The notes beneath the pieces were generated by a model, which was not told the DNA's origin, searched no databases, and saw nothing but the letters and a program-made list of their open reading frames with translations. From the NCBI GenBank assembly GCA_026004655.1, contig BPJO01000020.1, forward strand, positions 1 to 64,000: a DNA stretch of 64,000 nt, written 5' to 3'. This DNA is from Phycisphaerae bacterium. Its GTDB lineage: Bacteria > Planctomycetota > Phycisphaerae > Tepidisphaerales > Tepidisphaeraceae. The first letter of the stretch is position 1, and the number at the start of each line of letters is the position of its first letter. Both the position numbers and the translations under genes were made by a program. Below are positions 214-15,919 of this stretch, one piece after another.

Positions 214-579
214 GTGAAGCAGTTTCTCTCCATCACCAAAGCCTTGTCCGACGGGACGCGTGTGCGTGCCCTCTTGTCTCTGCGCGAGGGCGAGTTATGC
301 CTGTGCCAGATCATTGATTTGCTGGGGATGGCCCCCTCGACTGTCTCTAAGCACATGGACCTGCTGTATCAGGCCGGACTGGTGGAGCGGGAGAAAAAAG
401 GACGATGGCACTACTTTCGCCTGTCCGGTCGCGATGCTTCGCCTGTGGTCCGGAAAGCGTTGCGTTGGGTGTTGGATACCTTGGCTGATGAGCCCGTGGT
501 CAAGGCAGACGCCAAGCAGCTCTGTTGCGTTCTGAAAAAAGATCTGGAGGAGGTGAGCGCATGCTACCGCGGAAACTGA
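214..579 (+). CDS. arsR: ArsR/SmtB-family arsenite-responsive repressor
   Basis: This 121-residue protein is a typical winged-helix ArsR/SmtB repressor. It is expected to bind the operon promoter and release it when arsenite or another thiophilic metal binds. The recognition-helix region follows GELCLCQI, whose C29 and C31 match the metal-sensing ELCVCDL motif of the family; a second pair, C103-C104 near the C-terminus, could add ligands. The start is GTG at 214, preceded by GGAG seven bases upstream. It is the first gene of arsR-arsC-arsM-acr3 and overlaps arsC by 19 bases, which points to translational coupling. The promoter repeat over the -10 box is its likely operator. Family assignment is secure; the exact inducer is inferred from the neighbours. 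Confidence 0.93.
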   Translation: MKQFLSITKALSDGTRVRALLSLREGELCLCQIIDLLGMAPSTVSKHMDLLYQAGLVEREKKGRWHYFRLSGRDASPVVRKALRWVLDTLADEPVVKADAKQLCCVLKKDLEEVSACYRGN

Positions 580-1001
580 AGGTGCTGTTTCTCTGTACCG
601 GCAATTCCTGCCGCAGCCAGATGGCCGAGGGTTGGGCTCGTCATCTCAAGGGCGATGTGATCGAGGCCTATTCGGCTGGGATCAAGGCTCACGGACTGAA
701 CCCCGACGCGGTGAAGGTCATGGCCGAAGCCGGTGTCGATATTAGCAACCATACGTCCAAGACCACTGAGGCGGTGCGTGATGTGCCGTTTGATTACGTG
801 GTGACTGTCTGCGGTCATGCCAACGAAACCTGCCCGACTTGGCTGGGAAGTAAGACCAGTATTATTCATGTGGGTTTCGATGACCCCCCGGCGCTGGCCA
901 AGTCGGCTAAGACGCCGGAAGAGGCGTTGAACCACTATCGTCGAGTACGGGACGAAATTGAAGCGTTTGTGCAAACATTACCCGATTCACTGAAGCAATG
1001 A
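561..1001 (+). CDS. arsC: arsenate reductase, low-molecular-weight phosphatase type
   Basis: This enzyme reduces arsenate to arsenite in the cytoplasm, which feeds the methyltransferase and efflux pump encoded next. The N-terminus shows the P-loop CTGNSCRS (C12-X5-R18) of the LMW tyrosine-phosphatase fold, and FDDPP in the C-terminal half supplies the family's general-acid aspartate. At 146 residues it has normal length for the thioredoxin-coupled class. I chose ATG 561 because GGAGGAGG lies just upstream and the family motif begins ten residues later; an in-frame start at 525 would add a non-homologous leader. It overlaps the end of arsR. The cysteine relay to thioredoxin is family knowledge and was not tested residue by residue. 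Confidence 0.92.
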   Translation: MLPRKLKVLFLCTGNSCRSQMAEGWARHLKGDVIEAYSAGIKAHGLNPDAVKVMAEAGVDISNHTSKTTEAVRDVPFDYVVTVCGHANETCPTWLGSKTSIIHVGFDDPPALAKSAKTPEEALNHYRRVRDEIEAFVQTLPDSLKQ

Positions 1002-1023
1002 TGCTGATCAGATAGGAGTCAAT

Positions 1024-1902
1024 ATGAGTTGCTATGATAATTCCACCATTACGTGCTGTTCGTCGACATCTGACGTGCGCGAAAAGGTTCGCGACGGCTA
1101 TGCAAAGATTGCCCAGACGGGGCAACTCGCCACGGCGACGGCCCCCAAGGGTGGCGGCTGCTGTGGTGTGTCAACGCTGAGTATCGACGAACTGGTCCAA
1201 AGGATCGGTTACTCGGCTGAGCAGATCCGCGATCTGCCCGAAGGGGCCAACATGGGGCTTTCGTGCGGCAATCCCACCGTCATCGCCGACCTCCGGCCGG
1301 GTCAGATTGTCCTGGACCTGGGCTGCGGCGGCGGGTTCGACGTGTTTCTGGCCGGTCCGAAGGTTGGTGCCACAGGTCGGGTGATCGGGGTGGACATGAC
1401 TCCCGAGATGCTTACTAAGGCTCGACGAAATACCGACGTCTACCGAAAGAAAACCGGTCTAGACAATGTCGAGTTCCGACTGGGCGAGATCGAGCACCTT
1501 CCACTGGCGGATGCCAGCGTAGACGTGGTTATCTCTAACTGCGTCATCAACCTTTCACCGGATAAACCTCAGGTCTGGCGGGAGATTGCTCGAGTCCTCA
1601 GGCCGGGAGGCCGCGTCGTGGTGTCGGACATGGCGCTGTTGCGCCCGTTGCCGACTGAGGTCAGCCAGATGGTCGAGGCACTGGTGGGCTGCATAGCTGG
1701 CGCGGTGCTGCTGGACGACTACCGCCAGATGGTGATCGCTGCCGGTTTGGACGATGTATCTCTTCGACCCAAACCAGAGTACATCACGGTGCTGGTAGAG
1801 TTCAAAGACCCGCTTTACCGGCAGATCGCCGAAAAACTCCCCGCTGGCACGACTGTAGGAGATTTCGTCACCAGCGTGGATGTGACAGCGACCAAGCGGT
1901 GA
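1024..1902 (+). CDS. arsM: arsenite S-adenosylmethionine methyltransferase
   Basis: This cytoplasmic class I methyltransferase transfers methyl groups from SAM to As(III), giving methylated arsenicals that are volatile or exported. It carries the SAM-binding loop LDLGCGGG near residue 100 and the three conserved arsenic-binding cysteines of ArsM: C81 (GLSCGNP), C173 (SNCVINL) and C223 (VGCIAGA). A further CC pair at 46-47 sits in the N-terminal region. The 292-residue length is usual for the bacterial enzyme. AGGAG lies six bases before the ATG. It is third in the ars operon and is clearly different from the longer ArsM paralogue at 14711-15919. I am sure of the family; the number of methylations performed cannot be read from sequence. 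Confidence 0.93.
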
Positions 1903-1940
1903 TTGTTGTGGACATCGGTTGATCGACTTTGAGGTGAATC

Positions 1941-3065
1941 ATGGCAGGAATCGCCCGGAGACTCTCGTTTTTGGATCGCTATCTGACATTGTGGATCTTC
2001 CTGGCGATGATGTTTGGAATTGGGCTGAGCTATCTGGCGCCGGGTACCCAGTCTTTGATCCACCGTTTCGAGTTCGGTACGATCAACGTCCCCATTGCAA
2101 TCGGTCTGATCCTCATGATGTACCCGCCACTGGCCAAGGTGCGTTACGAAGAGCTGGGCGATGTGTTCTGTAACGTCAAGGTACTGGGTCTATCGCTGGT
2201 ACAGAACTGGGTCATCGGTCCGATTCTCATGTTCGGCTTGGCTGCCCTTTTCCTGCATAACAATCCGGAGTTCATGATCGGTCTGATCATGATCGGCTTG
2301 GCGCGGTGCATTGCGATGGTCATCGTGTGGAATGCCCTGGCCAGGGGCGACACGGAATACGCCGCCGGTCTGGTCGCGTTCAACAGCGTGTTTCAGGTGC
2401 TCTTCTACAGCGTGTATGCCTGGCTGTTCATCAAGGTCATCCCCTCGTCGATCGGACTGTCTTTGGGTGATGTGGACCTCTCGAGGATCACGATGGCCAG
2501 CATCGCTCAGAGCGTGTTGATCTACCTCGGCATTCCGTTTCTGGCAGGGATGATCACACGCTTTGCCTTGGTGAGATCCAAAGGCCGCGAGTGGTATGAG
2601 AATCGGTTCATCCCCAGGATCAGCCCGATCACTCTGGTGGCGCTGCTATTTACCATCGTGGCGATGTTCGTCATCCAGGGGGATAAGATTGTGCGTCAAC
2701 CGTGGAACGTGGTGCTGATTGCCATCCCACTGCTAATCTACTTTGTGGTGATGTTCCTGGTGAGCTTTTGGATGGGTAAAAAGGCCGGGGCCGACTATTC
2801 CAAGACCGCGACCGTCGCATTCACCGCCGCCAGCAACAATTTCGAGTTGGCCATCGCTGTGGCTGTTGCGGTCTTTGGCATCGATCATGGCGCGGCTTTT
2901 GCCACTGTCATCGGTCCTTTGGTAGAAGTGCCGGTGCTGATTGGGCTGGTGAATGTGTCGCTATGGCTGCAGCGGTGGTACTTCGCTGATAGCGGCGTTA
3001 CGCCTCTACCCATGGCTATTAAGAGCGGTTGCCCGACGATGCTCCACAGGGAAGAACGAACCTAA
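1941..3065 (+). CDS. acr3: ACR3-family arsenite efflux permease
   Basis: This 374-residue inner-membrane protein exports arsenite using the proton gradient and completes the reduce-methylate-export set. It is almost entirely hydrophobic, with about ten membrane segments, and contains the ACR3 signature GLARCIAMV whose C123 is the essential cysteine of the family, plus the conserved [17 protein letters not shown] segment near the C-terminus. ATG 1941 follows GAGGTG. It ends 27 bases from the converging 3' end of the minus-strand glycosyltransferase gene, and I see no clear terminator hairpin between them. The family is unmistakable and is distinct from ArsB of the E. coli type. Confidence 0.94.
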
Positions 3066-3092: not shown

Positions 3093-6000
3093 TCAGCAGC
3101 GGAGGCCCTTTGCCCCCGTACCGTTAGGACTCTCAGAAAACCCGCTATGATTCGAACCACCAGTCAAGTGATACCGTAGGATCAGCCACTGGTGCCACAA
3201 CGTTGTGCGTATCCATCCGCGTGACTCCCAACGGCGTGCGGAGGTGGACACGCTTGCAGATGCCACATGGATCCGGCCACAGACCTTGACTCGCGAGAGC
3301 ATGACGTAGTCCTCCATGTACGGCAGATCGGGGAATCCGCCGCACTGCCGATAGGTGTGGCTCGTCATGAAGAGAGCCTGGTCCCCGTAGGGTCGCCCAA
3401 GAATGCGTGCACGGACAAAGACACCCCATTCGATCAGGCGCGGGGCCAGCCCTCGGGCATCGATGCTGAGGTTGAACGCACCCGCAGCGATGCCTGGTCG
3501 CCCGAGTGTCTGCTCCACGATGCTGGCGAACCCAAATGGCAAGATCGTGTCCGCATGGAGGAAGATCAGTCGATCGCCGCGAGCGTGACTTGCGCCGAGA
3601 TTGAGTTGCCGACCGCGCGACGGTTCGGAGTCTACGACTGTGACTCCGAAATGACGCGCGATCTCGCGGGTAAGATCAGTGCTCCGGGCATCAACGACGA
3701 TGATCTGAATGTCTCCCGCAGTCAGTGTAGAACAGATCGTGGCGGCCAGATGGTCCTGCTCGTTTCGCGTCGGGATAATGACCGAGATACGAGGCCGGGT
3801 ATCGTTCATGGCCAATCGGGCCGACGCCCATGAGACCAGATCCGCAGGGGTGTCCACATCCGACAACACTGGAAGCAAGATATGACGCAGACCGAGGCGA
3901 TGGCAGGCATTGAGGGTCTGGGCGAGGACTTCCGGCCCTCCCCACGCAATGTCTTCGAACAGTTCCGCGTGATCTGACTTGATCCCGATGAGGTAGTAGC
4001 CGCCATCCAATGCCGGGCCGATGACGACGTCGTGATCGTCCAGGGCTACGAACGCAAGGTCCAAGCGGTCGGCATCGAGCATCGGACAGTCCGTGCCAAT
4101 GAGGACGACTTTACCGGCTCCACTGTTGATCGCCTCGGCAGCTGCGGCGCGAAGGCGCTGCCCAAGATTGCCGGGACCTTGCTTACAATAAATCAGGTCA
4201 CGACCAAAAAGGGAGACCATTTCCCGTCGCGATGAACCGGTGAAACGCAGTTCCAGCACGACATTCCGGCGACTACGGAGTTGGCGGGATGCCTCAACGG
4301 TAATCCGAACGAGCTGTCGGTGCAGCAGAGCCGCACCCGTGGGGCCAAGCAATGGAATCAGCCGAGTCTTGGCTTGTCCGGGCTTGGGATAGCGACCGAA
4401 GATGATGAGACGATCCGTTCCTATGATCGAGTGATCAGACTGTCCACGAACCGCCTCGCGGAAGATGGTGCTGAGAATCTTGATGCCTGCGCCAATCACG
4501 CCTCGAATCGTACCAGAAATCTTCGACTTGCCGATGCGACACCGGTAACTGACGGGCATTTCGACAGCACGCAGGCCAAGTCGGGCGGCCCGTACCTGCA
4601 TCTGCACCGTCCAACCATAATCACGATCGTCCATACTCAGTCGCTGGAGTGAGGTGTAACGGATAGCACGGAACGGGCCGAGATCGGTATGTCGAACGCC
4701 ATAAAACAAGCGAATCAGCCAACAGGCCAACGCGTTTCCGAACCGTTGCTGCGGTGTCAGTGCGCCCTCTTCGCTGTGGCCAAGAACCCGTGATCCGATC
4801 ACCAGGTCTGCCTCTTCTCGCACGATAGGTGCGATCAGGCGGCTCATTTCCCGCGGGTGATCACTGAAGTCGCCATCCAGAAACACGACGATGTGAGGTC
4901 GATCCAGTATGGCCAGGCCTGCCAGGCAGGCAGCGCCGTAGCCTCGCTGGGGTTCATGCACGACCGTTGCTCCGAACCGTCGAGCGATAGCAGCGGTGCT
5001 ATCGGTTGATCCATTGTCGGCCACGACGATCTGGCTCACCCATTTGGGTATGGCGGCGAGAACGGAACCGATCGACTGCTCCTCGTTCAAGGCTGGAATG
5101 ACGACAGAGATCCGAATACCTGCCGGAGGCGTGTAGTCATCATCCGTCACAGCTAGTTCTGCCCGAGTCATTCGGACCGACAACCATCCCCAGGCTGCCC
5201 ATCCGATCAGCAGCCACACCGGTAGGTGCTCGATCCACATCACCCATGGATAGTCGTATTGCAAGTGGTACAGGGGAAGCAGGGGGGTGTAGAGCACCAG
5301 TGCCCGGGCCGGAGCCAGTACCAGGAACGGAAGTACCCATGTGTAGTACCACGGGAACTGCGTCGGGCTCAAGAGAAACAACCCACCAACGGCAATCATG
5401 CTCCACCACGCGACGGACGCGGCATCGGGCAGTCGACGTCGTGACAGAAACAGCATCCACAAGAGTACAAGCACGATCGTGGTGAGGCGGGCGAGCTGGT
5501 GAGGATCGGCCCACCACAGTAAGTCATATTCGTCGAGGGTTTGCGTCGTCCAGTGTAGCACCGCGAAGAAGCCGGCGTTGTTGATCCACTGATGAGCATA
5601 AGCGTTCACGCCCGATTCCGACTCCTGGCCCCAACTGGCTAGCAACGGCCAAGTCACGATACCGGCAATCACTACCAGCAAGATCACGCCTGTCAGCAAC
5701 TGCCGTCTGTCTTGCACACCATACCGCAGCAGGACCGGTGCGAGCACCACAGGCCAGAGCTTGGTGCCTATGGCCAAACCGAGTAGGACAATCCCAAAAT
5801 ATCGCCAGCGCCACACGATCGCTGCCATCGCCGCAACGGTAAACAAGACCGCAAGCCCATCCATATGGGCCGAAACATAGAACTCCTTCACGGCGATAGG
5901 GTTCCACCAGTAGAGTGCGAGCCAATGCAGCGGAAGTCGTAGGCTCTGCAGCAATGCCACCAGGATCGAGACCAAGACCAGTTCTGCGACTAGGAATATC

Positions 6001-6569
6001 CCCCTGAGCGATTCCGCGCTGAAGGGCTCGATCCAGTAAGCGACGGCAAAGGCCCACTGGGCCACAGGTGGATAGATCGTCGTCAGGTAAGAATGATTTA
6101 CGTTCACCAGTGTGGGTCGACCGGTCTCTGCTAGAGCAGAGAACGCGGGGTCTTGCGGCAAACGGTCGGTACGGTGCTCGAGCACATCGATTGGACGGAT
6201 GGTGTAAGGGTTGTACCCATTAGCGGTGACCGCGCCGTCCCACAGGTAGCGATAGAAGTCCGACTCGAATCGAGGTGGCTCAGAGAACGCCAGCAGACGT
6301 ATCAGCAGACCGGTCAGTAGAATCCAGGCGACCACCCCCGGTCCTGAAGCCGACCTCCTAAGCCAGGCCAGTGCGACGAGCAGTGCTACGCCTGCGGCCA
6401 TGTAGGCCGAAGTCAGAAACGCGGATCGTGTCGTTTCCGTAACCCCCTCCGTCCAAGCGCCGACCTTCACCACTGCGACATTCATGACGATCAGCACACC
6501 GCCAGAGAAAGCCCAAATGAGACTTTGCTTCGCAGGGGCATTTGCAATCAATACCAGTGGTCTTTTCAT
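3093..6569 (-). CDS. four-domain glycosyltransferase fusion of the arsenosugar type
   Basis: This protein of about 1158 residues joins four units. Residues 1-470 form a polytopic membrane glycosyltransferase of the GT87/ArnT-like kind, with an early acidic motif (FESDFYRYLWDG). Residues 480-720 are a GT2 domain (VVIPALNEE, ADNGSTDST, FLDGDFSDHP) resembling dolichyl-phosphate mannose synthases. Residues 725-920 are a DUF2064/TIGR04282 domain (FGRYPKPGQAKTRL, GTDCPML, GPALDGGYYLIG). Residues 930-1150 are a second GT2 domain of the TIGR04283 type (IIPTRNE, FLHADT). The last two are the transferases linked to arsenosugar biosynthesis. ATG 6569 forms an ATGA overlap with the upstream gene's stop; GTG 6578 is an alternative. 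It probably builds a sugar donor or glycosylates the arsenical at the membrane, but substrate and order of steps are inferred. Confidence 0.85.
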   Translation of the reverse strand: MKRPLVLIANAPAKQSLIWAFSGGVLIVMNVAVVKVGAWTEGVTETTRSAFLTSAYMAAGVALLVALAWLRRSASGPGVVAWILLTGLLIRLLAFSEPPRFESDFYRYLWDGAVTANGYNPYTIRPIDVLEHRTDRLPQDPAFSALAETGRPTLVNVNHSYLTTIYPPVAQWAFAVAYWIEPFSAESLRGIFLVAELVLVSILVALLQSLRLPLHWLALYWWNPIAVKEFYVSAHMDGLAVLFTVAAMAAIVWRWRYFGIVLLGLAIGTKLWPVVLAPVLLRYGVQDRRQLLTGVILLVVIAGIVTWPLLASWGQESESGVNAYAHQWINNAGFFAVLHWTTQTLDEYDLLWWADPHQLARLTTIVLVLLWMLFLSRRRLPDAASVAWWSMIAVGGLFLLSPTQFPWYYTWVLPFLVLAPARALVLYTPLLPLYHLQYDYPWVMWIEHLPVWLLIGWAAWGWLSVRMTRAELAVTDDDYTPPAGIRISVVIPALNEEQSIGSVLAAIPKWVSQIVVADNGSTDSTAAIARRFGATVVHEPQRGYGAACLAGLAILDRPHIVVFLDGDFSDHPREMSRLIAPIVREEADLVIGSRVLGHSEEGALTPQQRFGNALACWLIRLFYGVRHTDLGPFRAIRYTSLQRLSMDDRDYGWTVQMQVRAARLGLRAVEMPVSYRCRIGKSKISGTIRGVIGAGIKILSTIFREAVRGQSDHSIIGTDRLIIFGRYPKPGQAKTRLIPLLGPTGAALLHRQLVRITVEASRQLRSRRNVVLELRFTGSSRREMVSLFGRDLIYCKQGPGNLGQRLRAAAAEAINSGAGKVVLIGTDCPMLDADRLDLAFVALDDHDVVIGPALDGGYYLIGIKSDHAELFEDIAWGGPEVLAQTLNACHRLGLRHILLPVLSDVDTPADLVSWASARLAMNDTRPRISVIIPTRNEQDHLAATICSTLTAGDIQIIVVDARSTDLTREIARHFGVTVVDSEPSRGRQLNLGASHARGDRLIFLHADTILPFGFASIVEQTLGRPGIAAGAFNLSIDARGLAPRLIEWGVFVRARILGRPYGDQALFMTSHTYRQCGGFPDLPYMEDYVMLSRVKVCGRIHVASASVSTSARRWESRGWIRTTLWHQWLILRYHLTGGSNHSGFSESPNGTGAKGLRC

Positions 6570-8137
6570 CTTCGCCACCCGAGGAATCGGGTCACCAGAG
6601 ACTTCACCCGCGGGGTCAGCCGCGTACGACTGTAGGCATCGCCGGCACGCTTCATAATGTCGGCCTGTGTCGGATAGGGATGGATCGTCTTGCTCAACGT
6701 GCCCAGCCCCACGCCGGCTACCATGGCTAAGGTAATCTCCGAGATCATCTCGCCGGCATGCCTGGCGACGAGAGTGGCGCCGATGATCTTGTCTGTGCCT
6801 TTGCGCACATGAACCTTGAGCAAGCCATCGTCTTCGCCATCCAGGATGGCACGGTCCACGTCCTTGAGTTCGACGGTGAATGTCTGCACCGGTATGCCTG
6901 CAGCCTCGGCGTCACGCTCGTACATACCGACATGGGCGATCTCCGGATCGGTGTAGGTACACCAAGGAATGGTCAAGGTGCTGGCCTTGGCTCGTCCAAA
7001 GAACAGTGCATTCTGGATGACGATACGGGCTAGCGCGTCGGCGGTGTGGGTGAACTTGTACTTGGAGCAGATGTCTCCGGCGGCATAGATTCGCTTGTTG
7101 GTCGTACGAAGCCGATCATCGACGGTCACACCGGCCTGCTTGTCGTATTGAACACCGACTGTTTCCAGGTTCAGGTCCTCTACGTTTGGCGCGCGGCCCA
7201 CGCCGACCAGGATCGCGTCCACCACGATCTCATGACGTTGGCCGTCGCATTCGACAATGATGATTCGCTCGTCGCCCTGGCGATGGACCTCTGCCGCCTT
7301 GCCGCCACAGACGATCTTCACACCGTCGCGGACCAAGGCCGCTTCGACCCGACGGGCTGCGTCGTAATCCTCGCGGATCAGTATCTGCTTGTCGGCTTCG
7401 ATCAGCGTCACCTGCGATCCAAATCGGGCAAAGCTCTGAGCCATCTCGCAGCCGATGGGGCCGCCACCGATTACCGCCAGGCGTCGTGGCAATTGCGTGA
7501 GCGAGAACAGTGTCTCGTTGGTCAGGTAACCGGCTTCGGCTAACCCTTTGATCGGTGGAGCGACGGCGCGGGCACCGGTGGCGATGACCGCGCGGGCGAA
7601 CTGGAGTTGCTGTCCTTCCACCTCGACCGTGTCGGGACCATTGAACCGGGCTGCCCCCAGGAACACATCAACGCCTAGCTTCTTGAATCGATGCACCGAG
7701 TCATTGGGCGCGATCTCGGCGCGGATCCGCCGCATCCGCTCCATGACGGCCGGGAAGTCCACTTCCACCGGACCGACGATCTTTATACCAAAGGATGATC
7801 CGCGGCGGGCATCGAAAGCGGCGCGGGCGCAACGGATCAATGCCTTGGACGGGACACATCCGACATTCAGGCAATCGCCACCGGTCAGGTGCTTCTCGAT
7901 GAGGGCAACCTTCGCACCAAGCCCTGCAGCCCCGGCTGCAGTCACCAACCCGGCGGTACCGGCACCGATCACGATCAGGTTGTACCGTCCGTCGGGCTTG
8001 GGATTCACCCAGTCGCTCGGATGTGTTTGTTGCTGCAACCGGAGATTGTACTCGTCGAAGGGTATCAACGCAGGCACGAGTGGATCGTCGTCATCGGGAT
8101 ACGCAATGCCGCCGAAGCTGTCTGGGGAAAGGCTCAT
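6566..8137 (-). CDS. MerA-like FAD-dependent disulfide oxidoreductase
   Basis: This is a class I pyridine nucleotide-disulfide oxidoreductase of 523 residues. An FAD-binding GAGTAGL begins near residue 58, the redox-active pair is C89/C94 in CLNVGCVPSK, an NAD(P)H-binding GGGPIGCE follows, and the C-terminal dimerisation domain ends with HPYPTQADIM. It would be annotated as mercuric reductase by similarity, but it lacks the N-terminal HMA domain and ends without the paired cysteines that hand Hg(II) to the active site in true MerA, so mercury reduction is doubtful. A dihydrolipoamide-dehydrogenase-like thiol reductase serving arsenic chemistry is an alternative. ATG 8137 shares its A with the stop of the upstream gene and follows AAGGAG; TTG 8140 is the other option. 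Confidence 0.85.
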   Translation of the reverse strand: MSLSPDSFGGIAYPDDDDPLVPALIPFDEYNLRLQQQTHPSDWVNPKPDGRYNLIVIGAGTAGLVTAAGAAGLGAKVALIEKHLTGGDCLNVGCVPSKALIRCARAAFDARRGSSFGIKIVGPVEVDFPAVMERMRRIRAEIAPNDSVHRFKKLGVDVFLGAARFNGPDTVEVEGQQLQFARAVIATGARAVAPPIKGLAEAGYLTNETLFSLTQLPRRLAVIGGGPIGCEMAQSFARFGSQVTLIEADKQILIREDYDAARRVEAALVRDGVKIVCGGKAAEVHRQGDERIIIVECDGQRHEIVVDAILVGVGRAPNVEDLNLETVGVQYDKQAGVTVDDRLRTTNKRIYAAGDICSKYKFTHTADALARIVIQNALFFGRAKASTLTIPWCTYTDPEIAHVGMYERDAEAAGIPVQTFTVELKDVDRAILDGEDDGLLKVHVRKGTDKIIGATLVARHAGEMISEITLAMVAGVGLGTLSKTIHPYPTQADIMKRAGDAYSRTRLTPRVKSLVTRFLGWRR

Positions 8138-9780
8138 CAATTAGGCTCCTTGGCATTTAGAGACCAGTCGTAATTCAGGAACTCGACTTTCGGCTTATTG
8201 CCTGAATCGAGGGATTGCTTGAGCTGCGGTGAGTAACCCGCGGCATAGTTCATTACCGATCCAGCCACTTGATCGAAGTCGCCGGCATACCAGTTGTAGA
8301 GACTGGTGAGTCTGACGACGTTGGCGATGCGATCGAACTGGAACCAACGATCATGGGTATGGACATACCGGGCCTGGTCGGCTAGCTGCGCTTCTAGTCG
8401 ATCCGAGACATAGGCCTCGTTCCGCAGCGGCGGGCAGCCGATCGCGGCACACACCAGGGCAAAGTGAATCCTCGGCTCCTTGAAGTGCGGTCGAATCTGC
8501 TCGTGCTCGATCTGGTTGAGGCTCCATACATTGCCACCAATATTCCAACGCTTAGCGTCCCAGCGCTGATCGGCGGGAATATCCTTGATCGACTTGATCG
8601 GGTAGTAGTCAAGGATAAGACGCAGTGTGAACGCGTTATAGGCGTTGATCAGCAGTGCCAGACGTTCGTTCCGACCCATGTCCGTCAGCGGTGCACTCGC
8701 CAGCGACGCGATATAACCATCCAGCATTGTCGGATCGGACTTCAGAGCACGATAATCGACCAGCCCGGTATCATCGACATGCTGACGCAGCAAGGTATCG
8801 AAAGCGGAATGATCAAATCGTGGGCCATGCGGCTTATCCGTATAGGTTTCTGTCATCGTGACAGTCGGTGGACCGAAGAGCCCGGGGATCGTCACTCGAT
8901 AGATGTAAGCGTAGGCAGTACACCCGGCCAGTACCAACGCGAATACCAGCACGAGTAGCGTTGTCGTCACGGGTGAGCCCGACGCTGTGACTGGGGATGC
9001 AAGTGATGGGTCGGTGGATTGGTCAGCGATGACTTTATTCTCGTGAATGGCATTGCGAGCCAGACGCGTGACGTAAACTGTGACGAGCACGGTCGCCACC
9101 AACCCCACGACCAGGATCGCCCACTGGGCGAGAGATCGTCCGTCCGGCGCTCCGGTTGCGGCACTCAGGCCGGCCCGTCCCGCATAACCCAAATAGACAT
9201 ACATGAACGTGCCCGGCAGCATGGCTAGCCAGCTTGTCAGCACGTAAGGCCAGAAACGGATCGACGTCACACCATAGAGGTAGTTCCCAAGGCTGAACGG
9301 GATTGCCGGGGATAGTCGGAGCAACGCGATGATCTTCCATCCCTCTTGACCGATGGCACGGTCGATAGCAGAAAATTGTGGGTTTCGTGACGCCCATTGG
9401 CGTACCGAATCGCGAGCGAGGTAACGACCAACTAGGAACGAGACAGCGGCTGCCGTTGTCGAAGCGAGAGACACCAGAATAGTACCAACGACCAACCCAA
9501 ACACCGCGCCAGCAGCCAGTGTGAGCGCCGATCCGGGCACGAAGAGTACCGCAGCCAGAACGTACACTACCGCGAACATCACCGGCCCCCATACGCCCAG
9601 CGATTCGACTTTGGCCGAGAGCAGAGCCACTAGACGATCCACAGGAAGAAGCCGCACCAGCAGCAACAGGGACATAAGGATCGTCGCCAAGGATGCCAGG
9701 CGCACCCAGGAAAACCATCGACTGTGTGATGGTGCTGACGAGCTTGAGAAATCGACAGATGGATTGGCTATTAAAGGCAT
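8137..9780 (-). CDS. TVP38/DedA-type membrane protein fused to DUF547
   Basis: The first half (about residues 25-235) is a TVP38/TMEM64 SNARE-associated (PF09335-type) membrane domain with several hydrophobic segments and the conserved FVPGSALTLAAGAVFG motif. After a linker and one more membrane helix (about 270-290), residues 320-530 form a DUF547 domain (LLINAYNAFTLRLIL, HFALVCAAIGCPPLRNEAY), probably outside the cytoplasm. Both domains recur next to arsenosugar genes, usually as separate proteins; neither has an established biochemical role there. DedA-like proteins elsewhere act in lipid or small-molecule transport. The gene is translationally coupled to the flavoprotein downstream. The domain calls are firm and the function is unknown. 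Confidence 0.85.
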   Translation of the reverse strand: MPLIANPSVDFSSSSAPSHSRWFSWVRLASLATILMSLLLLVRLLPVDRLVALLSAKVESLGVWGPVMFAVVYVLAAVLFVPGSALTLAAGAVFGLVVGTILVSLASTTAAAVSFLVGRYLARDSVRQWASRNPQFSAIDRAIGQEGWKIIALLRLSPAIPFSLGNYLYGVTSIRFWPYVLTSWLAMLPGTFMYVYLGYAGRAGLSAATGAPDGRSLAQWAILVVGLVATVLVTVYVTRLARNAIHENKVIADQSTDPSLASPVTASGSPVTTTLLVLVFALVLAGCTAYAYIYRVTIPGLFGPPTVTMTETYTDKPHGPRFDHSAFDTLLRQHVDDTGLVDYRALKSDPTMLDGYIASLASAPLTDMGRNERLALLINAYNAFTLRLILDYYPIKSIKDIPADQRWDAKRWNIGGNVWSLNQIEHEQIRPHFKEPRIHFALVCAAIGCPPLRNEAYVSDRLEAQLADQARYVHTHDRWFQFDRIANVVRLTSLYNWYAGDFDQVAGSVMNYAAGYSPQLKQSLDSGNKPKVEFLNYDWSLNAKEPN

Positions 9781-9824: not shown

Positions 9825-10415
9825 TTAGTGTCCGACGATCCGCCGCGCCGCTACGATCAGGTCGGCGGACTCGAGTCGCTTCTTGTAGTCCGCATCCCAG
9901 TGGGCAAAGCGAATGACGCCCTGGGTATCGACGATATAGACCGCGGACACGGGCATCAGGTGATGGTCACGCCCCGAGGCCTTGTCCAAGTCGATGCCGA
10001 AGCCGCGATATTTCTCGACGGTCGGGTCATCCACACGGAATGCCAGTCCGAAGGCGCGGGTCAGCACCATGTCGCTGTCGGACAGCAGCTGGTAGGTGTA
10101 GCCGCCCTCGTCGATGGAGGTGCGAAGGGCTTCGGGTTGGTCAGGGCTGATTGCCAGAACTTGGTATCCGATCTTGATCAGCTCGGCCTCCGCCTTGGCG
10201 ATCTGACCGAGGTGGGTATTGCAATAAGGGCACCATCCGCCGCGATAGAAGATTAGGATGGTCGGCTTGGCCGCGTATGCCCTGGACAGCGTCATAGGCT
10301 GGCCGTCAGGGCGCGCCAGCGTCGCGCTGGGAGCCCGGTCGTCCTCCTTGAGCGGGTGCACGTCCTCAGCACGAATTGGGATGGCAGCTTGTGTGACGGG
10401 TGCGGGAATCGTCAT
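9825..10415 (-). CDS. AhpC/TSA-family peroxiredoxin-like protein
   Basis: This 196-residue thioredoxin-fold protein carries the active-site motif YRGGWCPYC and the segment ISPDQPEALR seen in the AhpC/TSA (bacterioferritin-comigratory-like) group, so a thiol peroxidase or disulfide-reductase role is expected. I started it at ATG 10415, which has CAGGAG seven bases upstream; a start at 10454 would add 13 unrelated residues. It has no signal peptide and is probably cytoplasmic. Its place in the arsenosugar-type operon suggests protection of thiols or peroxide removal during arsenic metabolism, which is inference. A gap of about 190 bases separates it from the phosphatase gene upstream. Confidence 0.82.
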   Translation of the reverse strand: MTIPAPVTQAAIPIRAEDVHPLKEDDRAPSATLARPDGQPMTLSRAYAAKPTILIFYRGGWCPYCNTHLGQIAKAEAELIKIGYQVLAISPDQPEALRTSIDEGGYTYQLLSDSDMVLTRAFGLAFRVDDPTVEKYRGFGIDLDKASGRDHHLMPVSAVYIVDTQGVIRFAHWDADYKKRLESADLIVAARRIVGH

Positions 10416-10605
10416 CGTCGTCTCCTGTTGGCGGCCGGCGGATCCAAGAAACATTCCGGCAAGCAGTGTGAATAGCCTAGCGTTTTCATGTCATCTCTAC
10501 GTAACAGTGGTGAGTCGCGCCGAGCCAACGAATCCTTACAGATATTTCGCAGGCCGTCATGTGGCGAGTACTGTTGCATCGCAGGAACGCCGCGCACCAC
10601 TCCAC

Positions 10606-11469
10606 TCAGTCCCGAAGATCAAGCCCCAACATGCGAGCCATGACGCGCAATTTTTCGCCCAGGGACTGCAGCGGGGGATTCGTGCCATTGTGATGCAGCA
10701 CCAGCAGCGTCTCGTCGTCATCGGAGGTGCTGGCCCCGCGATAGGCCGTCACCGACTTCGGGATGCTCCTGCCCATTTCCGATGGTGATCCCGTCGGTAG
10801 TCCGCGAACCAGCGATAGCAAACCCTCCTCGCCAAGTATCCTGCCCTCCGGATTGCGTGCATCAATGAGCGAATCTGTGAACAAGAGCACCCGATCATGC
10901 TGTCCAAGCTTGATGGAAAATTGCATGTACTGTACGCCCTCGATGATGCCCAGAGGGAGGTTGCGAATTGCGGCCGTGGGCTCGGAAGCAACGTGATCGA
11001 GCAACTCCCATGTTGCCGTTGCGCTGCGATACCACAGCGGGCGCGGATGCCCCAGGTTGCAGACGATGAGGTGGTCGGTCGGCGCAAAATAGGTCGCCAG
11101 GATTGCGGTGGCGAATCGACCCTCGCGAGCGAGATGGGCAAAACGATTGTTGAGGGTCCGGGCGAATATCGTCTGGTCTAAGGTGCGGATATGCTTCCGC
11201 ATCAGCTTACGGAGGAGCTGCCCCAGTTCGCCCGCCGTCGTTCCGTGGCCCGACACGTCTGCCAGGGCAAACCGCGAGATGCGACCGGCTTCACACATTG
11301 AGAGATAGTAGACATCGCCTCCATCGACATCACCGTGATACGGGGTGGACGAGACCCACGCATCGATTCCCGGAACCGATAGCCCGGTCTCGACGGCTTC
11401 ACTGCCGCCCCAGACCTCCAGACACTGCATCGCGTGGGTATGGTCAGAAGATGTCGCAACCCTTGGCAT
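10606..11469 (-). CDS. SpoIIE-type PP2C serine/threonine phosphatase
   Basis: This 287-residue protein is a stand-alone PP2C/SpoIIE phosphatase domain. Metal-binding acidic motifs are visible as YHGDVDGGDVYY (residues 44-55) and ADVSGHG (70-76), followed by CNLGHPRPLWY and LLFTDSLIDARN, a normal set for the family. No sensor, HAMP or receiver domain is attached. ATG 11469 is supported by AAGGA six bases upstream; a longer reading from 11568 would overlap the MerP-like gene. Such phosphatases usually act on an anti-sigma-antagonist protein, but none is encoded in the window, so its target is unknown. A link to the ECF/anti-sigma pair at 19.9-20.8 kb is conceivable but unproven. Confidence 0.82.
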   Translation of the reverse strand: MPRVATSSDHTHAMQCLEVWGGSEAVETGLSVPGIDAWVSSTPYHGDVDGGDVYYLSMCEAGRISRFALADVSGHGTTAGELGQLLRKLMRKHIRTLDQTIFARTLNNRFAHLAREGRFATAILATYFAPTDHLIVCNLGHPRPLWYRSATATWELLDHVASEPTAAIRNLPLGIIEGVQYMQFSIKLGQHDRVLLFTDSLIDARNPEGRILGEEGLLSLVRGLPTGSPSEMGRSIPKSVTAYRGASTSDDDETLLVLHHNGTNPPLQSLGEKLRVMARMLGLDLRD

Positions 11470-11500
11470 GTCGATTCCTTGAATGGAAGCCGTTTCCCGC

Positions 11501-11758
11501 TCACTTGGGTCGCACAGTCGTATCATCGCCCGAGAGATTCGTCGGCGATTTGAATCCCGCTTGCTCAACCGCTTCGCGGATCACTTTATTTCCAGGCTCA
11601 TCGATGGCGGATCGAATCGTGGCGGTGCGGTCGTCAAAGGAGACGTGCGCTTCGGTGACACCGGGCAGTTTGGTCAGCTTGACTTCCAGCCTGGCGGCAC
11701 ATGCGGCGAACGTCATACCCTCAATGTGATAGACGCGGGTCGTTTGCTGCATGACCAT
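11501..11758 (-). CDS. MerP-like HMA-domain protein with an altered metal site
   Basis: The 85 residues form one heavy-metal-associated ferredoxin-like domain. The usual GMTCxxC motif reads GMTFAAC (residues 14-20): the first cysteine is phenylalanine (codon TTC, one base from TGC), leaving only C20. HMA domains need both cysteines to bind Hg(II) or Cu(I), so this copy should bind weakly or otherwise, perhaps as part of a three-coordinate As(III) site with a partner. Unlike classical MerP no signal peptide is present, so it is probably cytoplasmic. Either ATG 11758 or 11752 could start it, and no strong ribosome site is visible. It follows the broken merT-like gene. Confidence 0.75.
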   Translation of the reverse strand: MVMQQTTRVYHIEGMTFAACAARLEVKLTKLPGVTEAHVSFDDRTATIRSAIDEPGNKVIREAVEQAGFKSPTNLSGDDTTVRPK

Positions 11759-11813: not shown

Positions 11814-12525
11814 TCAGCGCCGGGCTGTAAACGCGAAGGCGATTACAAAGACCGTGGCGACCCACAACAGGGAACGATTGAATCGCTGGAGCTTCGGATT
11901 TGGTACAGCGCACGCTTCGCCGGGCTTGCACGCCTGTTTACGGAAATAGGCGAAGTAGAAGCCAATGCCCAGGAAGACCCCGGCGGCAGCAAGGAAGTAG
12001 GGCGCACGGAGTCGAGGAAACGGCCACGCCTCCCGCCGACAAACCGAACGCCAAGAGCAGCAGCGGCAGCCAGCAGCAAGCCGAGGAAAGAATCGCCGAC
12101 CCCACGGCGGCAGGCGTGCTCCATAGCGACATGCGGTTGGCTTGACCCGACGTGCCTTCGATCAGTTGGACCGGGGCCTGAGACGAGCAACAATCGTGAG
12201 TACCTGCGCCGTGGTCGGATGCTCTATGGGATGCCTCGCGTATGGCCTGCTCGATCATCTCCACTGGCGGGACGCCCGCGCCATCAAACATCCGGCAGCC
12301 AAAGCCGTAATTGTGTTTCGTTCGTTGCGTTGGATCTATATCCTGACCATCGACCAGTACGGTCGGTGACCCGATGAACTTCATAGTTACGGGATCATCA
12401 TTTTGGGTCATTTCGATCTCGCAGACCTCTGCTAAGACGCCCATCCGGTGGATGACTTCCTTCAACCGCTGAACGGTGGGTTTGTGATTGGGGCATCCCT
12501 TGAAGTAGAGCACATCAATCTTCAT
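11814..12525 (-). pseudogene. DF-domain/MerT-like metal transporter, frameshifted
   Basis: The first about 100 codons encode a thioredoxin-fold DF-family domain (VLYFKGCPNHKPT, FIGSPTVLVDG), followed by a linker and a MerT-like membrane segment (SACCWLPLLLLAFGLSAGGVAV). At about 12000-12025 the reading frame breaks. A second frame carries LDSVRP and a third carries YFLAAAGVFLGIGFYFAYFRK followed by QAC and NRSLLWVATVFVIAFAF, ending at TGA 11814-11816. Together they make a full MerT, so two one-base indels separate an otherwise intact gene. One falls in a CCC run, so sequencing error is possible, though true decay fits the neighbouring pseudogenes. It overlaps arsS by 11 bases. When intact it would import Hg(II) or a related metal ion for the MerP-like and MerA-like partners. 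Confidence 0.8.
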
Positions 12526-13546
12526 CGGAGTCTCCTCGTGCCTTGTCTGATGCCAGCGATCCTTTACATGACGAACCGCAGCCGGCGGTGCAACCGAAGC
12601 AGTGGTCGCCCGTCGCGATCCTCCGGCGTCGGTACTTCTCCGGATCGAAGTCCCGGATGTGCTTCACGGGACCGTTCACGGGCAGGCCGATACCATAGTT
12701 GAAGTCGCAGTCATAAAGTTGACCGTCCCAGCCAACATGCAGTTGGTGTCGACACATCAGCCCGGGCAGCGTAGCGGGGTTGAACGTTTCCCGCAGGACC
12801 TGAGTATAACGTTCGGCTTGACCATCGCGCTTCAGGTCGTGCAGGAAGCGACCAATCGGCATATTCGTGATGGTGTAGAGTCGGTTGAAACGAATACCAA
12901 AGCGACGATCCAGTTCCACCCGATAGGCTTCCTCGAGCTTCTCCTGCGACGGGGGCAGACTCGGACCCCCGGGGTTGTACACCAGGTCCAGTTGAAGACG
13001 TGGGTCATTACCGTAGCCCAGTACGTTGAGCTGTAGGATGACTTCGATGCTGTCACGGTACACGTGCTTACCACGTTGTTTGTCGACGTTCGTCTCAAGG
13101 TAGCAGGGAAGCGAGGCCACCAAATGTACGCCCCGCTCGGCGTAGAATCGAGGCAGGTTAACGGACCCAGGCTGCAACATGATGGTCAGGTTCGTGCGGA
13201 CCAGTACATGCAGACCCTGGGCGATGGCGGCGTCTACAAACCTACCAAACAGCGGGTGCATCTCGGGCGCACCACCGGTGATGTCGAGCGTCCTGGCTCC
13301 AGCACGACGTGCCGCGTCGAGAACCATGACCATCGTCTCCCAGGTCATCTGTTCCTTGCGGCTCGGCGACGACTCGACATGGCAATGATGGCACGCTAGA
13401 TTGCAGCGTAAACCGATGTTGACCTGCACTGTCTCGAGTGTAAGCCCGTCGAGGTCGGCGTTCAGCTTCTCCCGTACATACCTGTCAAAGTCGTTGGAGG
13501 TCAGTTCTGTCTCGAAGGCAGTCCAGATGGGTAATACTAACTTCAT
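12515..13546 (-). CDS. arsS: arsenosugar biosynthesis radical SAM protein ArsS
   Basis: This 343-residue radical SAM enzyme matches the ArsS family: the cluster motif CNLACHHC (C48, C52, C55), the SPASM-like cysteine-rich C-terminus (CRHQLHVGWDGQLYDCDFN, then HCFGCTAGCGSSCKG), and the characteristic opening LPIWTAFETEL. ArsS acts after ArsM, adding the 5'-deoxyadenosyl group of SAM to a dimethylated arsenical on the way to arsenosugars. It starts at ATG 13546 with AGGAG upstream, three bases after the PiT permease gene. It is the diagnostic gene that marks this operon as arsenosugar-type. Family assignment is strong; the product made by this organism is inferred. Confidence 0.9.
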   Translation of the reverse strand: MKLVLPIWTAFETELTSNDFDRYVREKLNADLDGLTLETVQVNIGLRCNLACHHCHVESSPSRKEQMTWETMVMVLDAARRAGARTLDITGGAPEMHPLFGRFVDAAIAQGLHVLVRTNLTIMLQPGSVNLPRFYAERGVHLVASLPCYLETNVDKQRGKHVYRDSIEVILQLNVLGYGNDPRLQLDLVYNPGGPSLPPSQEKLEEAYRVELDRRFGIRFNRLYTITNMPIGRFLHDLKRDGQAERYTQVLRETFNPATLPGLMCRHQLHVGWDGQLYDCDFNYGIGLPVNGPVKHIRDFDPEKYRRRRIATGDHCFGCTAGCGSSCKGSLASDKARGDSDED

Positions 13547-13549
13547 GGA

Positions 13550-14686
13550 TCAAACTCCTAAATTTTTCAAAAGCCAACACAGCCCAGCACCCACTGCCAA
13601 TCCCATCGGCAGTGTCAGTGCCCACGCGGCGAGGATTCGTCCGATGATGCGCCAGTCGCGTTTCCCATTGACTGCGCTGATCCCGAAGATTGCACCACAT
13701 GAGACGTGAGTTGTGGATACCGGCAGCCCCAGGCGCGAAGCGCCAAGCACGAGCACTGCCGTCACCAAGTTAGCGGTCAACCCCTGACCGGTGTTCAGGT
13801 CCGTGATCCGTCGGCTCATCGTCTCAGCCACACGCCGACTTTGTAGCCATCCGCCCAAAGCAACCGCGACGGTCACCAGCCCTAGCACCCAGGGCTGACC
13901 GACACCAAGCCCAAGGACCGGAGCACTCAGTAAAATCGCTGCGATTTTAGGTGTATCGTTTGTAGCCCTGGCGAAACACACCGCTCCAGCGCTCAGATAA
14001 TGCACGGCATTGACGATCGTCTGCACTTGGACGCCTACAACCTGTCCTTGGTAGCGATCCACACAGATCTGTGTTGTACCGGTAGCCACTTCCAGTTGCC
14101 CGGTCATGGACGCGCGTGCGTAGCCGGGCGCGCCAGCGATGAACGGCACCGGGTTGGCGTTACCGATGCAAAAGCAGCTCCGACTGGTGATCCCACTACG
14201 GGCCCGAAGGCGGTGAAGGACAACGTAGAGGCCTGCTGTAAGCCCAATCGATAGCAGCGGACTGAGCAGCAGAGGTTGTGCGAACCTGGTCAACAGAATG
14301 CCGGTGTTGATACCAGTAGGATCTACGACCAGCGCCGCGCCAACCAGTGCCCCGGTGAGTGCGTGGGTGGTTGAGGTCGGCATACCCAGTATCGTGGCGA
14401 GCAAGATCGTTGCAGAAGCCGCCAGTCCGACCGCTGCCAAAGTGCTATCATTCATGAGTTCCGCGTCAATGATACTTTGGACGCTGAAGGTCTTAATCAG
14501 GCCGTGGGCCAGGAACACCGAGACCACGCTTCCTGCGACTGTTGCCACCGTTGCCAAGATCAGTGCTACGCGATAGTTCAGCGTCCGGCTGCCATACAGC
14601 GTAGCCACGCCTTTGAAGTTGTCATTGGCACCGTTGCTCCAGCCAAGCCAGATCGTTCCCAGTACCAGACATGCAATCAGCATCAT
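13550..14686 (-). CDS. PiT-family phosphate/arsenate permease
   Basis: The 378-residue membrane protein has the duplicated PiT signature: GWSNGANDNFKG near the N-terminus and its degenerate counterpart FARATNDTPKIAA in the middle, each followed by a serine/threonine-rich STTH segment (GMPTSTTHALTG and LPVSTTHVSCG). PiT carriers import inorganic phosphate with protons or sodium and also admit arsenate. Its place directly between arsM and arsS suggests a role in moving arsenate, phosphate or a related oxyanion for arsenosugar synthesis. It could instead scavenge phosphate when arsenate competes. Direction and substrate are not readable from sequence. Confidence 0.88.
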   Translation of the reverse strand: MMLIACLVLGTIWLGWSNGANDNFKGVATLYGSRTLNYRVALILATVATVAGSVVSVFLAHGLIKTFSVQSIIDAELMNDSTLAAVGLAASATILLATILGMPTSTTHALTGALVGAALVVDPTGINTGILLTRFAQPLLLSPLLSIGLTAGLYVVLHRLRARSGITSRSCFCIGNANPVPFIAGAPGYARASMTGQLEVATGTTQICVDRYQGQVVGVQVQTIVNAVHYLSAGAVCFARATNDTPKIAAILLSAPVLGLGVGQPWVLGLVTVAVALGGWLQSRRVAETMSRRITDLNTGQGLTANLVTAVLVLGASRLGLPVSTTHVSCGAIFGISAVNGKRDWRIIGRILAAWALTLPMGLAVGAGLCWLLKNLGV

Positions 14687-14710: not shown

Positions 14711-15919
14711 TTAGCAACAGCCGCTTTCGGGAGTGCAAGCAGGTTTGCCGTCCGCAGTGCGGGTTTCGCGGTACTCCACACCTTTGGTCTGGCGTGGATG
14801 GCGAACGCTGCTGACGTGGCAATCAAACGCCTTGGCCTGATCCAACGGTACGTCCACGCGCGGAAGCACGGGAATCATCTGCCCGGCATAAGGGCCGGAG
14901 GGGTCAGTGACGATCTGGAACGTCTTGTCGCACACGGCCATGCGTTGCCCACGATGGAAGACGTGGCCGTCGTCATCGCGGACTTGTTTCCAGGGACCTT
15001 TGTAAATCACCGCTTGGTTGCGTTCGAGGCACGGACCCTCTTTGCCCTTGAAGGCACGCACGGTTAACGAACGGAACTCCACACCGTCGATTACCTGCCA
15101 GGGTTCGTCGGCGCGGCTAAGGATCTCCACGCCGTAGAACCCTGCCTCCTCGAACATCTGTAGGAAACGGTCCTCGCGGAAGGCTCCGGAGATGCAACCG
15201 GACCACAGTTTTGGGTCCGAGAGGATGGCGGGTGTCGGGTCCTCGTCGCAGACGATGTCAGAGATCACGCAGCGACCACCACGCCGTAGCACGCGATGCA
15301 TCTCACAGAAGAGCTGTGCTTTTTCCTGACTTCGCACCAGGTTTAGTACACAGTTGGAGACGATCACGTCTACCGATTCGTCCGCGATCAGTGGTGATTG
15401 AACGCGAAGGGTCTGACAGTGGCCCTCGAAGGCCGACACCTGTTCGATGGTCCGGATGGGGTTGCGCTTAAGCCATTCTCCAGCAGCTTCCAGATCGAGC
15501 GCCATATCCTGAATACGGGCCTTGCGGAACTCCACATTCCGGTACCCGAGCTTTCCGGCCATCTCGTCAAGGTACTTGCGAGCTAGGGCCAACATCGCAT
15601 CGTTGAAGTCCAGACCAATGACCTTTCCCCGTGCCCCGACCTTCTGGGCTAGGATGTAGCATACCTTGCCTGCGCCCGACCCGAGATCCACCACCACTTC
15701 TCCCTCAGCGACGTGCTGTGACGGATCTCCGCAGCCGTAATCTTTCTCGATGATCTCCCTTGGAAGAAGTTTGAGAAACGTCGGATCGTAGCTCGTGGTC
15801 GGACAACATAGTCCTGGCTCGACCTCTCTGGCCCCGTTGGCATAACGCTCGAGAATCTCGCTTTCCAAATCATCTGAGGGCCTGGGATCAATCGTAGGTG
15901 ATGACGTCATCTGGGTCAT
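14711..15919 (-). CDS. arsM: arsenosugar-type arsenite methyltransferase with C-terminal extension
   Basis: This 402-residue ArsM paralogue has the SAM loop VDLGSGAGK (residues 77-85) and the three arsenic-site cysteines in YGCGDPS (C63), SNCVLNL and SGCISGA. Unlike the 292-residue ArsM of the + strand operon, it carries an insertion before SNC and about 100 extra C-terminal residues ending in SGCC. This architecture is that of the methyltransferases co-occurring with ArsS. It would supply the dimethylated arsenical used by ArsS. ATG 15919 is preceded by GGAG. It is the first intact gene of the ten-gene minus-strand operon; only 41 bases separate it from the dead glucosidase, so its promoter may lie inside that pseudogene. 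Confidence 0.9.
   Translation of the reverse strand: MTQMTSSPTIDPRPSDDLESEILERYANGAREVEPGLCCPTTSYDPTFLKLLPREIIEKDYGCGDPSQHVAEGEVVVDLGSGAGKVCYILAQKVGARGKVIGLDFNDAMLALARKYLDEMAGKLGYRNVEFRKARIQDMALDLEAAGEWLKRNPIRTIEQVSAFEGHCQTLRVQSPLIADESVDVIVSNCVLNLVRSQEKAQLFCEMHRVLRRGGRCVISDIVCDEDPTPAILSDPKLWSGCISGAFREDRFLQMFEEAGFYGVEILSRADEPWQVIDGVEFRSLTVRAFKGKEGPCLERNQAVIYKGPWKQVRDDDGHVFHRGQRMAVCDKTFQIVTDPSGPYAGQMIPVLPRVDVPLDQAKAFDCHVSSVRHPRQTKGVEYRETRTADGKPACTPESGCC

Follow-up and report, generated by a model that had tools for sequence, protein, structure and literature searches.

We describe a single protein that joins four enzymatic domains within an arsenic gene cluster of a Phycisphaerae bacterium. Its gene occupies positions 3093..6569 of the minus strand of the window (the whole stretch of DNA analyzed, 64,000 nucleotides of contig BPJO01000020.1) and encodes, from the N terminus, a polytopic GT-C domain, a GT2 domain resembling polyprenyl-phosphate-sugar synthases, a TIGR04282/DUF2064 domain, and a TIGR04283 GT2 domain. 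It is the last gene of a co-directional minus-strand cluster that also contains ArsM-like, ArsS, PiT-type, VTT-DUF547, and flavin oxidoreductase genes. Fusion and clustering are observed directly. Tentatively, and with somewhat less than an even chance of being right, we propose that the protein activates dimethylarsinoyl-ribose as a nucleotide sugar, likely loads it onto polyprenyl phosphate, and transfers it outside the membrane, likely to a lipid or an envelope glycan, each of these reactions being a prediction. The link of TIGR04282 and TIGR04283 to arsenosugars is already known from NCBIfam. The four-domain chain, the GT2 and GT-C partners, and a polyprenyl-phosphate arsenosugar route were not found in print by our literature search.

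Four domains in one reading frame

The gene is an uninterrupted frame of 1158 codons (3477 bases, ATG to TGA, with zero internal stops), just as a previous sequence-only reading of this DNA had described it; the coordinates match. Two in-frame starts are available, ATG at 6569 and GTG at 6578. The likely length is 1158 codons because ATG 6569 and the stop codon of the neighboring flavin oxidoreductase gene, which lies upstream, share an ATGA, and residues are numbered here from GTG 6578. Domain searches upheld both the order and the substance of the domain list given in the sequence-only reading.

The N-terminal domain (5169..6569, minus strand; residues 4-470) has ~12 predicted membrane segments. 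By its fold and by a conserved acidic residue, D107, in what is predicted to be the first long outer loop, it belongs with the GT-C superfamily. When the whole protein was scanned, the N-terminal third gave zero Pfam matches at E 0.001; GT87 was matched by 11 of 16 aligned relatives at E values up to 0.1, the best being 3.9e-12. The predicted model of the domain matches the structures of ALG3 and glycosylphosphatidylinositol (GPI) mannosyltransferase I, both of which hold dolichol-phosphate mannose, and ArnT was not found among the 50 structure matches listed. A sequence search of the PDB with the GT-C domain alone returned nothing at E 1, and a profile search retrieved the mannosyltransferase 9dm5 at E 0.011, too weak to be used alone. 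The domain works like a GT-C enzyme and is not filed here as GT87. In the estimated topology, D107 lies on the outer side of the membrane and the three soluble domains on the inner side.

The second domain (4446..5117, minus strand; residues 488-711) has a clear Pfam match to GT2 (PF00535, residues 491-619), and its previous assignment as a prenyl-phosphate-sugar-synthase-like enzyme held. A DPMS fold combined with an acidic metal motif (D568, D570, and D573, present in 28 of 28 alignment rows) places it with the dolichol/polyprenyl-phosphate sugar synthases. The named NCBIfam equivalogs scored below their cutoffs (AglJ, 153.5 against 325 bits; DPhHxTase, 81.1 against 375; PpgS, 64.2 against 370).

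The third domain (3834..4415, minus strand; residues 722-915) matches the TIGR04282/DUF2064 profile at 196.5 bits over residues 724-914 (NCBIfam cutoff, 134). Its presence was correctly foreseen by the sequence-only reading, which had counted it as glycosyltransferase-type; its predicted fold resembles that of a nucleotidyltransferase more than that of a glycosyltransferase. K737-T-R739, D830, and D858-G-G occur in all 28 rows, motif positions in this alignment having been chosen after it had been viewed. Against the CofC-type nucleotidyltransferase model TIGR03552, the domain scores below the curated cutoff of 105 bits. The C-terminal domain (3165..3788, minus strand; residues 931-1138) is a TIGR04283 GT2 domain, as had been predicted, with 262.1 bits over its full extent (NCBIfam cutoff, 182).

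Relatives of the fusion and their linkage to ArsS

In a protein database search, 7996 candidates were scored and 381 matches obtained, of which the best 120 were listed and classified. Architectures were called with our own profile hidden Markov models, built from one alignment and applied at thresholds of 60 to 150 bits set by eye. Sought in other genomes, the fusion was found: all four domains lie in one chain in 22 of the 120 listed relatives. The last two domains had been expected to occur usually as separate or paired genes; among the listed relatives, the commonest form is instead a chain of GT2, TIGR04282, and TIGR04283 (88 of 120, a count that includes P0005, which duplicates part of the window's own protein, and perhaps further chains truncated at contig ends). 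GT-C+GT2+TIGR04282 accounts for nine more and GT-C+GT2 for one.

These counts bear on whether an artifact of assembly or reading has joined separate genes into the long frame. Many relatives do carry the parts as separate genes, in some cases neighboring ones, but the same four-part chain in 22 other database proteins among the matches listed led us to reject an artifact as very improbable. The aligned four-part relatives share 41-75% identity and three of them sit on contigs of >100 kb; moreover, the four domains are alike in composition (GC, 0.58-0.60; GC at third codon positions, 0.63-0.69).

The phylum was surveyed through 392 genomes. With two candidates scored per genome, a fusion-type match at E 1e-80 was obtained in 35, and only the window's own genome showed all four domains in an intact chain, a count that may be low. 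The exact four-domain fusion is uncommon in these genomes and recurrent among database proteins. On a tree of 212 GT2 domains, chosen for similarity to the GT2 domain or to the fusion, fusion to GT-C required 9 changes, compared with 33.5 in shuffles; parts of the tree are poorly supported, and its tips include incomplete proteins such as P0005. The fusions are clustered on this tree yet probably arose or broke more than once. In one genome (G274), one stop codon in frame separates GT-C from GT2 (TGA gcc ATG). At L151:47-3838, all that parts GT-C from GT2+TIGR04282+TIGR04283 is one in-frame stop followed by three bases and an ATG, which looks like an intermediate of fusion or fission.

ArsS was detected at E 1e-60 in 132 of the 392 genomes (131 above cutoff) and TIGR04283 at E 1e-35 in 157 (135 above cutoff). 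ArsS accompanies TIGR04283 in 97 of these 157 genomes, compared with 35 of the 235 others (p = 7e-22), and is present in 27 of the 35 genomes with a fusion-type match, compared with 105 of 357 others (p = 4e-8); both Fisher p values ignore the relatedness of the genomes. Where GT2 and TIGR04282 share one chain, ArsS is present in 10 of 12 genomes, against 122 of 380. In nine of those ten, the ArsS gene lies on the same contig as the GT2+TIGR04282 gene, within ~10.4 kb; in the tenth (G088), each sits on its own short contig. ArsS scored above cutoff in 13 genomes of a set of 61, made up of the window's own and 60 relatives. Synechococcus elongatus, used as a control, scored above cutoff for ArsS, TIGR04282, and TIGR04283 alike, and Aquimarina brevivitae DSM 17196 (L058) has ArsS together with GT2 and GT-C. 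Five of the 12 stretches L150 to L161 lack an ArsS label; genomes G222 and G376 do have ArsS by profile search, the label having been lost through the choice of frames, the sister contig L161 of the unlabeled L160 carries it, and none was seen in L150 and L151.

A proposed arsenosugar route and its rivals

The proposed route would begin with the product of ArsM and ArsS, 5'-deoxy-5'-dimethylarsinoyl-adenosine, the arsenic analogue of methylthioadenosine (MTA). A nucleoside phosphorylase would free arsenosugar-1-phosphate (a 5-modified ribose-1-phosphate). In the window's genome (93% complete), this enzyme might be the one PF01048 protein, an MTA phosphorylase (MTAP) equivalog at 284.1 bits (cutoff, 274.85) encoded on another contig. 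The TIGR04282 domain would turn the 1-phosphate into a nucleoside diphosphate (NDP)-sugar, which the DPMS-like GT2 domain would move to polyprenyl phosphate at the cytoplasmic face. The loaded carrier would then be flipped, perhaps with the assistance of the VTT/DedA protein, and at the outer face the GT-C domain would pass the sugar to its acceptor. Least certain is the role of TIGR04283, a cytoplasmic step that might draw on the same nucleotide sugar or on another one, with a phosphatidylglycerol-type acceptor as one example.

The sequence-only reading had suggested that an activated sugar is channeled from synthesis to transfer onto an arsenical or a lipid at the membrane. The passage from synthesis to membrane transfer fits the predicted folds; the arsenic, on the other hand, is probably carried by the donor sugar from the start and not by the acceptor, because the cluster itself encodes ArsS, ~6 kb upstream. 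For the early steps, one report describes a radical SAM enzyme that adenosylates arsenic, with methylation and adenosylation taking part in arsenosugar biosynthesis (PMC12159101). Another proposes loss of the adenosyl part for an algal arsenolipid (PMC10456119), and a further source treats DedA proteins as candidate undecaprenyl-phosphate (C55-P) translocases (PMC9876793).

By analogy of pathway, the nearest worked-out precedent is methylthioxylose (MTX) capping in mycobacteria. There, as in our proposal, a 5-modified pentose derived from an adenosine metabolite, a polyprenyl-phosphate donor, and a GT-C enzyme are combined, whereas sulfur takes the place of arsenic, MtxS and MtxT are separate genes, and the acceptor is lipoarabinomannan. 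An MTAP gene, as expected for a methylthioxylose-type pathway, is found in the window's genome; the mycobacterial locus presumably also holds a DUF2064 gene, an MTAP gene, and an epimerase gene. According to published work, MtxS makes MTX-P-C50 and MtxT transfers MTX (PMC8780516), and the pathway starts from MTA, uses a GT-C enzyme, and is of unclear existence beyond lipoarabinomannan (PMC11127046, 2024). If our proposal is correct, methylthioxylose-type chemistry would extend past mycobacterial lipoarabinomannan. Three-component pentofuranose addition (Kelly et al. 2024, GT136; PMC11127046) similarly relies on a polyprenyl-phosphate pentose synthase, a flippase, and a GT-C enzyme; those systems differ in starting from phosphoribosyl pyrophosphate and in using a MATE flippase, where the window has a DPMS-like GT2 domain predicted to use an NDP-sugar. 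With ALG3-type/GT87 mannosyltransferases, the window's protein shares the GT-C fold and a weak GT87 likeness, but it is fused to predicted donor-making enzymes and is predicted to handle a pentose.

The NCBIfam families TIGR04282 and TIGR04283, both named "arsenosugar biosynthesis glycosyltransferase," fit the window in that both cutoffs are passed and the domains cluster with ArsS. The window departs from them in joining both to DPMS-like GT2 and GT-C domains in one chain and in a TIGR04282 domain that we read as a nucleotidyltransferase. Two genes of this name appear, as annotation only, in a genome paper (PMC13077682). Our literature search, which saw sources partially and had subscription journals mostly outside its coverage, found no enzyme for which release, activation, or attachment of the sugar of arsenosugars has been demonstrated. 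The single protein and its split relatives offer a concrete set of candidate genes for these later arsenosugar or arsenolipid steps.

Several observations weigh against the arsenosugar route. Scanned alone, residues 4-480 score 20.3 bits against GT87 (PF09594), under the gathering score of 25; of the GT87/ArnT-like label proposed from sequence, the polytopic GT-C character and a weak GT87 likeness stood, and membership in GT87 by the Pfam cutoff did not. NCBIfam names TIGR04282 a glycosyltransferase and the two folds are related; at position 804 of this domain the window's protein alone has N, with D in 27 of 28 rows. The predicted model of the full fusion protein has a predicted template modeling (pTM) score of 0.49, and the placing of the domains relative to each other is uncertain in it. 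Among the 14 cluster proteins scanned, neither a phosphorylase nor a recognized flippase was found; MATE and SMR gave zero matches, and a VTT/DedA domain is present. In addition, purine nucleoside phosphorylase or MTAP was not found in 73 of the 80 GT2 loci examined (the best 80 of 435 relatives), whose 80 genomes were searched for ArsS. ArsS was detected at E 1e-50 in 54 of these genomes and was not recognized in 26, of which 25 keep TIGR04282. With the further ArsS-less genomes G162 and G274 added, TIGR04282 was retrieved at E 1e-25 in 27 of 28 (24 above cutoff), and TIGR04283 at E 1e-30 in 12 of 12 ArsS-less genomes tested (8 above cutoff). G162, a single 9.5-Mb contig, encodes GT2+TIGR04282+TIGR04283 and has no ArsS at E 1e-60; in the phylum, 60 of the 157 TIGR04283-positive genomes are without ArsS.

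Because 25 of 26 ArsS-less genomes keep TIGR04282, the module is not arsenic-specific everywhere, and an ArsS-only role for it is weakened. This retention suits a general glycosylation line that attaches a common or methylthio-type pentose outside the cytoplasm. Other enzymes would then make the arsenosugar, and the module would sit in arsenic clusters only because its envelope glycan is of use under arsenic stress. Proteobacterial genomes that have GT-C/GT2 pairs but no ArsS (e.g., L013, L020, and L074) point the same way. We nevertheless regard such a line as rather unlikely, given how strongly the module co-occurs with ArsS, and how closely it is linked to it, in the window's phylum. Phosphorylase genes also lie within ArsS-type clusters: a purine nucleoside phosphorylase relative occurs in 7 of the 80 loci, all seven with TIGR04282 and five with ArsS in the same stretch, and the three that were scanned all exceed the PRK08202 cutoff.

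Ten ArsS-less regions were chosen, and TIGR04283 and TIGR04282 are neighbors in nine. In two of the ten, both without a recognized ArsS, another radical SAM gene lies at the corresponding place, a further point against a general glycosylation line. In L169 (5819-9124), it follows TIGR04283, with TIGR04282 nearby and an MTAP gene adjoining end to end on the opposite strand, a neighborhood seen in 1 of the 10 regions and one that a methylthio-type pentose would also accommodate; in L170 (6623-11273), it lies between TIGR04282 and TIGR04283. The best model for both radical SAM proteins is Rv1681-type (below cutoff), and ArsS scores only 57-59 bits. At these loci the module may be supplied with a different 5'-modified adenosine. 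Its range seems to extend beyond arsenosugars, perhaps to other products of the 5'-modified adenosine type. A broader claim, more doubtful than the route itself but still a real prospect, is that bacteria make polyprenyl-phosphate arsenoribose, that a one-protein line activates arsenosugar-1-phosphate, loads it onto the lipid carrier, and decorates the outer face of the membrane with an arsenic sugar as an arsenic counterpart of methylthioxylose capping, and that any 5'-modified adenosine (carrying arsenic or sulfur, or another radical SAM product) could become a surface sugar via the four-domain module.

Architecture bears on a second alternative, in which arsenosugars are made in the cytoplasm. 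TIGR04282 would activate the sugar and TIGR04283 would transfer it to glycerol or phosphatidylglycerol, GT2 and GT-C would serve a separate glycan, and the fusion would reflect co-regulation only. It is exactly TIGR04282 and TIGR04283 that NCBIfam ties to arsenosugars, and a two-domain TIGR04282+TIGR04283 protein, with GT2 and GT-C absent from the chain, occurs in 14 of the 392 genomes (11 with ArsS) and lies beside ArsS in L134, L136, and L138. Nonetheless, 135 of the 212 GT2 sequences are fused to TIGR04282, and 11 proteins are GT-C+GT2+TIGR04282 chains without TIGR04283, tying the GT2/GT-C pair to the activating domain. We consider this alternative improbable.

Gene neighborhood of the fusion

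Strand and spacing suggest that the minus-strand genes form one operon. Directly upstream of the fusion lie a flavin oxidoreductase gene (6566..8140; PRK06370.1-3, 829.6 bits, cutoff 620) and a gene fusing VTT (DedA) and DUF547 by Pfam (8137..9780), a candidate for polyprenyl-phosphate recycling or flipping. The same VTT-DUF547 fusion was seen in the ArsS-bearing L092, L093, L096, L100, L153, L154, L155, and L158. Farther upstream on the minus strand are an AhpC/TSA-type protein gene (9825..10454; a SelL-related model match below its cutoff), an HMA-domain gene overlapping a SpoIIE-type gene inside the arsenic cluster (10606-11758), a DF family (seleno)protein domain (11938..12525; 101.2 bits, cutoff 70), and the gene for ArsS, the arsenosugar radical SAM protein (12515..13546; TIGR04167, 416 bits, cutoff 300). 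Between ArsS and an ArsM-like methyltransferase gene (14711..15919; best model NF040538, 323.6 bits, below the cutoff of 500) lies a PiT-type phosphate/sulfate permease relative (13550..14686; both NCBIfam matches below cutoff), which could move phosphate or an arsenical and has relatives in L014, L153, L155, and L158.

Convergent arsenic genes on the plus strand (214..3065) face this cluster: an ArsR-type regulator (214-579), an ArsC-type protein (525-1001; 143.9 bits, under the cutoff of 174.3), ArsM (1024-1902), and ACR3 (1941-3065), the last two above cutoff.

The gene order of the window recurs in L153, except that GT-C has a gene of its own: ArsM, PiT, fatty acid hydroxylase, ArsS, VTT-DUF547, FAD oxidoreductase, GT-C, and GT2+TIGR04282+TIGR04283 lie on one strand. 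L154, L155, L158, and L160 have much of the same gene set, arranged otherwise. Fatty acid hydroxylase genes, recognized by Pfam in L153 and L014 and by similarity in L068, occur near these three related clusters, which hints at a lipid product.

A 676-residue GT-C+GT2 fusion (L014:9761-11788), from a genome without a recognized ArsS, adjoins TIGR04282, TIGR04283, PiT, an ArsM-like gene, rhodanese, and the fatty acid hydroxylase. A candidate epimerase next to the L014 module was not used, its best model being of the thioester-reductase/short-chain dehydrogenase (SDR) type and below cutoff. At L051 (11864-13354), a third, cellulose-synthase-like GT2 gene lies between GT2 and GT-C, and genes of this kind are likewise placed at five listed loci (L031, L045, L051, L068, and L080).

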